A DNA stretch of 64,000 bases, from positions 186,001 through 250,000 of the forward strand of contig JANSXE010000006.1 in NCBI GenBank assembly GCA_024743195.1, written 5' to 3'. The notes below the pieces were generated by a model. It did not search any database. It was given only the letters and a program-made list of their open reading frames with translations, and was not told the DNA's origin. Shown here piece by piece: positions 14,526 through 15,569 of this stretch (its first letter is position 1; each line of letters opens with the position of its first letter). The position numbers were made by a program, and so were the translations under genes. This DNA is from Alphaproteobacteria bacterium (GTDB taxonomy: Bacteria > Pseudomonadota > Alphaproteobacteria > UBA8366 > Aestuariispiraceae).

Positions 14526-14825
14526 ATGGGACGGATCAAGCATCAGGCGCTGGCGGCGGACGAGGCGGCGCGACGTCGGGCGGCGCTTGGGGATCTGATC
14601 CCCTACGGCGCCGACGTCTTCTGCTGGTGCAATCGGTGCGGCCATAACGCCGTGCTGCCGCTCAAGGCGATGCTCGCCCGATTCGGACCGGCGCAGGAGG
14701 TGCCGGCGCTCGGCGCGCGCCTGCGCTGCAGCGGCTGCGGCTCGAAGGACGTCGCGACGCGCCCCGACTGGCCGTCGCTCGGCCAGGTCGCGCGCCATGA
14801 GACGGAACCGGAGGGCTCCTCCTGA
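14526..14825 (+). CDS. Small zinc-ribbon-like protein of unknown function
   Basis: 99 residues preceded by GGGAGG. The core FCWCNRCGHNAVLPL ... LRCSGCGSKDVATRP holds two pairs of cysteines (CNRC and CSGC), spaced as in a zinc ribbon, followed by PDWPSLGQVARHE. I recognise it only as a short conserved alphaproteobacterial hypothetical. It lies upstream of the gcrA control region on the same strand. Nucleic-acid binding is a reasonable guess from the fold, no more. Confidence 0.65.
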   Translation: MGRIKHQALAADEAARRRAALGDLIPYGADVFCWCNRCGHNAVLPLKAMLARFGPAQEVPALGARLRCSGCGSKDVATRPDWPSLGQVARHETEPEGSS

Positions 14826-15242
14826 ACCGCTTTCGAGTCGCGGGTTGATTCCAAAGCCTTTTCCGCGATCGGGGCGCCGCAATCCGGCCTGAATTCGCCC
14901 TGAAACCGACCCCACGGCGCCCCGGTCGCGCCTCCGGCCGACTTGACCTTGGCCTCGGAATCGGGCCCTTGCCGACCATCGAGTCCTCCGGCGGGCCGCG
15001 ACTCCGCAGAAAAGCGCTTGAGACTCGAAACCACGCCGTATATTGTGCCCAACAGATCAGGCCCTACTAGATATTGGAACGCGGGGGGATTCCGCGAACA
15101 GGGGAAGAGTCCCTCGAACCCGGGAAAGGCCCGATCCGCCGCGTACCCACGCGGCCCAGCGGAGGCGACTTCAAACACGAACTCCTCGGAGGGCGTCACA
15201 CGACGCCCGGACCGAGCGGCAACCGGACGGCGAGGTCTCGAC
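14826..15242. promoter_or_regulatory. gcrA upstream region with eight GANTC sites
   Basis: This 417-base non-coding stretch holds GANTC at 14835, 14847, 14958, 14981, 15000, 15022, 15088 and 15107, i.e. eight sites in 277 bases. About one would be expected by chance in roughly 360 bases of 70% GC DNA. GANTC is the target of the cell-cycle methylase CcrM, and the regulator GcrA works through methylated GANTC promoters. I therefore read this as a methylation-sensitive control region. Confidence 0.75.
15018..15046 (+). promoter_or_regulatory. Candidate sigma-70 promoter of gcrA with GANTC over the -35 box
   Basis: TTGAGA (15018-15023), 17-base spacer, TATTGT (15041-15046). The GACTC site at 15022-15026 overlaps the -35 element, so methylation could directly affect initiation. 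The predicted transcript has a leader of about 190 bases. Confidence 0.5.
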
Positions 15243-15569
15243 ATGGAATGGACGGAAGAGCGCGTGGCGACGCTCAAGGGCATGTGGCTCAGCGGCTACA
15301 CCGCCCGCCAGATCGCGGAACGCCTGGGCGGGGTGACGCGCAACGCGGTGATCGGCAAGGCGCACCGGTTGGGGCTGTCGACGCGTCCCTCCCCGATCCG
15401 GCGGCACGAGCCCGCCCCGATGACGCGCACGGTGGAGCGCACCTGCCAATGGCCGATCGGCCATCCCGGCAGCCCGGAATTCCATTTCTGCGGCGGCGAG
15501 GCTGTGTCCGGCAAACCCTATTGCGAGAAGCATTGCGGCGTCGCCTATCGCCGCAGCAGCACGGACTAG
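15243..15569 (+). CDS. gcrA: Cell-cycle regulator GcrA
   Basis: 108 residues, shorter than the about 170 of Caulobacter GcrA. The N-terminal HTH (MEWTEERVATLKGMWLSGYTARQIAERLGGVTRNAVIGKAHRLGLS) is the diagnostic GcrA DNA-binding domain. The C-terminal CQWPIGHPGSPEFHFCGGEAVSGKPYCEKHCGVAYR is the conserved sigma-factor-interacting module with its Cys/His set. The variable linker between them is short. GcrA binds sigma-70 holoenzyme and activates promoters with CcrM-methylated GANTC sites. A GAGG box precedes the ATG. Confidence 0.95.
   Translation: MEWTEERVATLKGMWLSGYTARQIAERLGGVTRNAVIGKAHRLGLSTRPSPIRRHEPAPMTRTVERTCQWPIGHPGSPEFHFCGGEAVSGKPYCEKHCGVAYRRSSTD

Follow-up and report, generated by a model that had tools for sequence, protein, structure and literature searches.

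The gcrA promoter of this alphaproteobacterial genome carries an array of eight GANTC sites, one of them inside a family-conserved -35 hexamer, and a pair of NrdR-like palindromes that recurs at the gene of the methylase CcrM. A GANTC-rich gcrA promoter is a kind of arrangement already known from Agrobacterium tumefaciens, and the new part is the NrdR-type pair at gcrA and ccrM. We consider it fairly probable that the promoter senses methylation through the array and that the pair would form a second gate operated by NrdR.

The GANTC array upstream of gcrA

The window analyzed here is a stretch of 64,000 nucleotides that contains gcrA, the sole copy in the 4.17-Mb genome. Its predicted product is assigned to GcrA by a match to PF07750 (2.5e-37) that covers Pfam positions 1-65 and 107-151, from which an N-terminal DNA-binding domain and a C-terminal sigma-interacting part are both predicted. 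The protein has only 108 amino acids because it lacks the linker found in the 173-position Caulobacter-type model, and its score does not reach the cut-off of NCBIfam model NF050816, which is of Caulobacter length. The whole array lies in the 417-bp gap between the end of a small upstream ORF (14825) and the start of gcrA (15243):

14526-14825, forward strand: small upstream ORF of 99 amino acids with CxxC pairs, zinc-ribbon-like
14835-14851: distal GANTC pair GAGTCgcgggttGATTC (sites 14835 and 14847)
14943-14962, forward strand: conserved TTGACC-N9-GAATC element (site 14958), invariant in eight aligned genomes of genera g1 and g5
14981-14985: GANTC site GAGTC
15000-15004: GANTC site GACTC, present in a same-genus relative too
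15018-15046, forward strand: sigma-70-type promoter with its -35 (TTGAGA) at 15018-15023, in a block conserved in 10 of 14 family members
15022-15026: GANTC site GACTC over the -35, its methylatable A being the last base of the hexamer
15033-15048: NrdR-like box 1, ACGCCGTATATTGTGC, overlapping the putative -10
15064-15079: NrdR-like box 2, CTACTAGATATTGGAA, 31 bp from box 1
15088-15111: downstream GANTC sites 15088 (GATTC; GACTC in G001) and 15107 (GAGTC), in the presumed 5' leader
15243-15569, forward strand: gcrA

The small ORF has no Pfam or NCBIfam match, and sequence resembling it also lies 5' of gcrA in the relatives G007, G008, and G003. An Rfam scan of the window returned no RNA family, and a search for a terminator near the gap found none. 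The TTGACC-N9-GAATC element was considered as a second promoter and ruled out, as no -10 lies at the right distance. Within the gap, there is no DnaA box at up to 2 mismatches, and a CtrA-like TTAA-N7-TTAA appears only when 2 mismatches are allowed. DnaA-like boxes (TTATCCACA) were seen upstream of gcrA in several relatives and may place the gene under DnaA control there, a control that is undetectable in the gap analyzed here.

All eight sites reported by an earlier, sequence-only reading of this DNA are present (14835, 14847, 14958, 14981, 15000, 15022, 15088, and 15107), and the roughly tenfold excess that it claimed is real and was understated. Chance was estimated from a 764-kb sample of the same genome (18%), split into coding and intergenic DNA by crude gene calls, with GANTC densities of 1.36/kb overall, 1.30/kb in coding, and 1.72/kb in intergenic sequence. 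The eight sites stand against 0.38 to 0.48 expected in 277 bp (Poisson P of about 7e-9 to 4e-8 per window of that length), and among all 277-bp windows of the sample that start at a GANTC, the one at gcrA holds eight sites and every other one at most four. A similar density is not a feature of many unrelated intergenic regions in this sample. Dinucleotide shuffles of the whole 64,000-nt window would yield 303 GANTC, whereas the window has 88; the motif is thus under-represented in the background. Part of the excess is nevertheless explained by local composition, from which a first-order Markov model expects 2.8 GANTC per 450 bp; for this reason, conservation is cleaner evidence than counts.

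Genome-wide, the array is not unique. A search for three GANTC with gaps of up to 30 bp found comparable or denser non-coding clusters 5' of ccrM (six sites in 93 bp) and fliF (nine in 240 bp) and also returned several clusters that are repeats inside ORFs. The fliF cluster lies between flgE and fliF (L049:2195-2438; G000:C3:142194-142438), and the region upstream of fliF holds 6 to 11 GANTC in genera g1 and g5 and few in other family members.

Across 30 gcrA loci from this genome and its relatives, the 450 bp upstream contain 7 to 11 GANTC in its own genus and genus g5, 2 to 5 in the remaining family, and 0 to 8 elsewhere in the order. A strong array is found in few of 77 named gcrA loci (EAC21, ma_oilr2, ERR599097, SB9157, Micavibrio L135, and X_S6 L142) and is absent from many, including Azospirillum brasilense and Inquilinus. 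The array is thus a recurring lineage trait that is kept in the genus and family and patchy in the order. Conserved spacing among relatives, to which the earlier reading had looked for corroboration, holds for two sites that are invariant in an alignment of eight genomes, TTGACC-N8/9-GAATCG and the GANTC in the -35, but the other sites are not positionally conserved beyond the genus. Pairs of the form GAGTCgcN6GANTCC that resemble GAGTCgcgggttGATTC occur in family f2 at a comparable distance from gcrA. Of the 16 N-centered palindromes, GANTC is the commonest 5' of gcrA and ccrM, though not 5' of ribonucleotide reductase (RNR) genes. Outside the order, dense arrays were seen in L135 5' of 6001 (Micavibrio; nine sites per 450 bp) and in L142 5' of 5749 (six sites per 450 bp); both lack an NrdR-like pair and are possibly independent in origin.

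The -35 site and the sign of the proposed methylation gating

The earlier observation that one site overlaps the -35 of a good promoter is correct, with TTGAGA at 15018-15023 and GACTC at 15022-15026. Two -10 alternatives fit this -35, TATATT (15039-15044, spacer 15) and TATTGT (15041-15046, spacer 17). In the 10 family members that share the block, it reads TTGAGACTC, or TTGAGAGTC in one species, and always lies 15 bp before TATATTGTG; the remaining 4 of 14 lack the -35 GANTC. Among family members, the middle, free base of this site is the sole one to change, as in G011, where GACTC has become GAGTC and the site is retained. The genome also has a ccrM gene, the absence of which would have spoken against any gating of this kind. 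Its product combines PF01555 (N6_N4_Mtase) with PF18755 (RAMA), and its best NCBIfam model is the CcrM of Caulobacter with 609 bits, under the strict cut-off of 830; GANTC specificity is predicted.

The closest known parallel is the gcrA promoter PG of A. tumefaciens, where the 250 bp 5' of gcrA hold six GANTC and methylation lowers the activity of a PG-lacZ reporter, both in Agrobacterium and in Escherichia coli made to produce CcrM; the authors propose that gcrA is activated at hemimethylation after fork passage (PMC11514494). Dense GANTC directly 5' of gcrA (6 per 250 bp there, 8 per 277 bp here) and the presence of ccrM are shared, and the over-representation of GANTC within a few hundred base pairs of the gene that marks the A. 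tumefaciens arrangement is found here as well. The two bacteria belong to different orders, and methylation is known to lower promoter activity in A. tumefaciens and is predicted to do so here. The cluster described here combines a site over a family-conserved -35 with an NrdR-like pair. Since PG is less active when methylated, full methylation probably represses the present gcrA promoter as well, with release by hemimethylation after replication, and such repression would fit methylation of the base that ends the -35.

In Caulobacter, GcrA binds in a manner dependent on GANTC methylation, other promoters are activated by methylated GANTC, and GANTC mutation reduced the activity of several of them by 60% to 80% (PMC3667746), so the sign at gcrA could be the opposite. 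Following this logic, methylated GANTC would recruit GcrA as a sigma-70 cofactor and activate gcrA in a positive autoregulatory loop that operates when the DNA is fully methylated, as the earlier reading implied. The Caulobacter crescentus promoters (mipZ, podJ, and ctrA P1; PMC3667746) do resemble the present one in having GANTC in the core promoter and the same families of regulator and methylase, but they have one or two sites each, several of them methylation-activated, whereas here an array lies at gcrA itself. We find activation doubtful, given that methylation lowers the activity of PG, the sole such gcrA promoter to have been tested, even in E. coli, where GcrA is absent (PMC11514494), and that the present gcrA has a GANTC inside the -35 itself. 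Less probable still, and in our view quite unlikely, is that the array is a by-product of intergenic DNA escaping the counter-selection that depletes coding GANTC, so that clusters arise without function. Across Alphaproteobacteria, coding DNA is indeed poor in GANTC and intergenic DNA comparatively rich in it (PMC3973325), and further clusters exist in this genome. The intergenic density of the genome is low, however, its dense non-coding clusters sit at gcrA, ccrM, and fliF, the two invariant gcrA sites are kept while the middle base varies, and gcrA arrays persist between genera.

Methylation gating of gcrA, as first proposed from the sequence, is therefore well supported, if indirectly, by the presence of ccrM, the conserved array, the -35 site, and the A. 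tumefaciens parallel. The accompanying idea that GcrA acts on methylated GANTC here may be wrong: with repression by methylation seen in E. coli lacking GcrA, GcrA action on methylated DNA is not required. The original interpretation was right in kind, incomplete, and possibly wrong in sign. In the gating by repression that we favor, CcrM would methylate all eight sites, and methylation, chiefly of the adenine that ends the -35, would lower gcrA promoter activity (the sign being taken from A. tumefaciens). Fork passage would leave the sites hemimethylated and gcrA transcribed until CcrM re-methylates them (the timing, too, from A. tumefaciens), so that gcrA expression would track the replication of the gcrA locus. 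A cluster of several sites would be expected to lengthen or sharpen the period of expression, and GcrA may itself bind sites of the array in an autoregulatory manner.

A pair of NrdR-like boxes at gcrA and ccrM

NrdR boxes follow the consensus ACACWATATATWGTGT and come in pairs. The first clue to them at gcrA was the TATATTGTG in the promoters of relatives, followed by a similar second palindrome 31 bp on; in the present genome, the same 31 bp from start to start amount to 15 bp between two 16-bp boxes. These boxes have 4 and 6 mismatches to the consensus, and boxes with 0 and 1 mismatches exist in the relatives G041 and G037. An nrdR gene is present in the genome, its nrdA-type gene has an NrdR-like pair 31 bp apart, and the RNR promoters of other family members have pairs at 30 to 32 bp. 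Purified NrdR proteins prefer 15 to 17 bp between boxes (PMC12051234), and the NrdR operators of RNR operons likewise consist of two 16-bp palindromes with 15 to 17 bp between them that overlap or lie near the promoter (PMC12051234, PMC9110341). Unlike in these operons, the target here is a cell-cycle regulator, gcrA (together with ccrM), and the boxes are weaker.

Because single NrdR boxes are too weak to interpret, pairs were scored with free spacing and a matrix trained solely on RNR promoters outside the genome's own genus to limit circularity. The best pairs in the 764 kb are those at nrdA (31.9 bits), gcrA (24.8), parC (23.1), and the glyA-nrdR side (20.6), and the next scores 13.9; the gcrA pair is thus second best in the sample, and its score falls in the top 0.05% of control windows. 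With the same matrix, a pair at ccrM scores 25.7 and one 5' of a YbjN-like ORF 26.7. When spacing was left free between 17 and 49 bp, 31 or 32 bp was best in 22 of 30 regions upstream of gcrA and 31 to 33 bp in 24 of 29 upstream of ccrM. Among 80 named gcrA loci, 42 have their best pair 5' of the gene, for which P is about 1e-10 even at a chance expectation of one-fifth, an optimistic value given that some loci are close kin (several are from Azospirillum). In Azospirillum, Tistlia, and Minwuia, the box sequences differ but the spacing is retained.

The paired palindromes might instead serve some other dimeric regulator whose motif resembles that of NrdR, or box 1 might be no more than an extended -10. 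That the gcrA boxes deviate from the NrdR consensus and that the putative -10 lies inside box 1 would agree with this explanation, which we nonetheless judge unlikely. An extended -10 leaves the second box at 31 bp unaccounted for, and a different regulator fits poorly with a matrix derived from RNR promoters of the same clade, with top matches at RNR, gcrA, parC, and the glyA-nrdR side followed by a gap in score, and with the spacing retained in the three genera just named despite different boxes. NrdR binding at the gcrA promoter is accordingly the reading we prefer, as a putative one. A literature search returned no report of NrdR at gcrA or ccrM, and gcrA goes unmentioned in the main text of a study of proteobacterial NrdR regulons (PMC5343134); a prediction in a database may nevertheless exist.

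At ccrM, the six GANTC in 93 bp lie between rnhB and ccrM (L050:2365-2457; G000:C31:174364-174456). The promoter there (TTGACS, 17 bp, CATGAT or a variant) is more conserved than that of gcrA and is found in nearly all relatives examined, in which the last C of a GANTC is also the first base of the -10. In the present genome, the -10 (CATGAT) lies 17 bp from TTGACC, and within the family it is part of the palindrome GANTCATGATTC. The NrdR-like pair (L050:2353-2401) differs from the operators of RNR operons in that its boxes contain CcrM sites, which form the inner arms of both (CTAGATATAGAGTC ... GACTCAATATATTG). Genera g1 and g5 retain both GANTC arms; that of box 2 is also retained by most of the family and by some members of the order. 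Methylation would therefore alter the operator itself and might change NrdR binding at ccrM. Control of gcrA does look "more elaborate" than a single promoter site, as had been suggested, albeit for another reason than the number of GANTC sites, namely the NrdR-type pair over the -10 and start region and the same combination at ccrM.

Nucleotide supply as a possible second input

As a second gate at gcrA, the pair over the -10 and start region would allow dATP-loaded NrdR to repress the gene when deoxynucleotides are plentiful, as it does with ribonucleotide reductase, and ccrM, with its GANTC cluster and NrdR-type pair, carries both features. We lean, by a small margin, towards a general form of this proposal, in which gcrA and ccrM, the two components of the epigenetic cell-cycle module, are under direct control of the dNTP sensor NrdR in Rhodospirillales-type Alphaproteobacteria, as are RNR and topoisomerase IV, and in which one piece of DNA at ccrM reads both methylation and nucleotide supply. 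The compact gcrA promoter could thus read fork passage via methylation; provided that the NrdR operators are genuine, it could read deoxynucleotide supply as well, and nucleotide sensing would then be expected to be linked directly to GcrA and to CcrM. The swarmer (G1) phase of C. crescentus is prolonged by elevated dNTP pools, and the behavior of an nrdR deletion agrees with this (PMC12186491); in lineages with the boxes, a link between NrdR and gcrA would be one possible explanation of this effect.

Several further sites were noted in passing. The parC pair (topoisomerase IV subunit A; 23.1 bits, 31 bp) lies about 20 bp upstream of the gene (L212:15836-15882; G000:C3, about 75.8 kb), another pair has a Ros/MucR-like ORF on one side and the glyA-nrdR-ribD genes on the other (L062:15776-15822; G000:C20), and that of the YbjN-like ORF is at L198:1498-1545 (G000:C10, about 283.1 kb). 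The simple pattern TATTG-N26-TATTG was discarded as a search tool, having picked up mostly an unrelated repeated motif, TATTGTGTCCCCG, which occurs partly in tandem at G000:C2:62370, C10:260818, C15:302152-302219, and C15:309783. In genus g5 (G009, G010, G011, G012, G005, and G013; L070 and L071), gcrA shares a strand with the RNR alpha-subunit gene and lies about 1.4 kb 5' of it, and in the present genome the two genes are on separate contigs.
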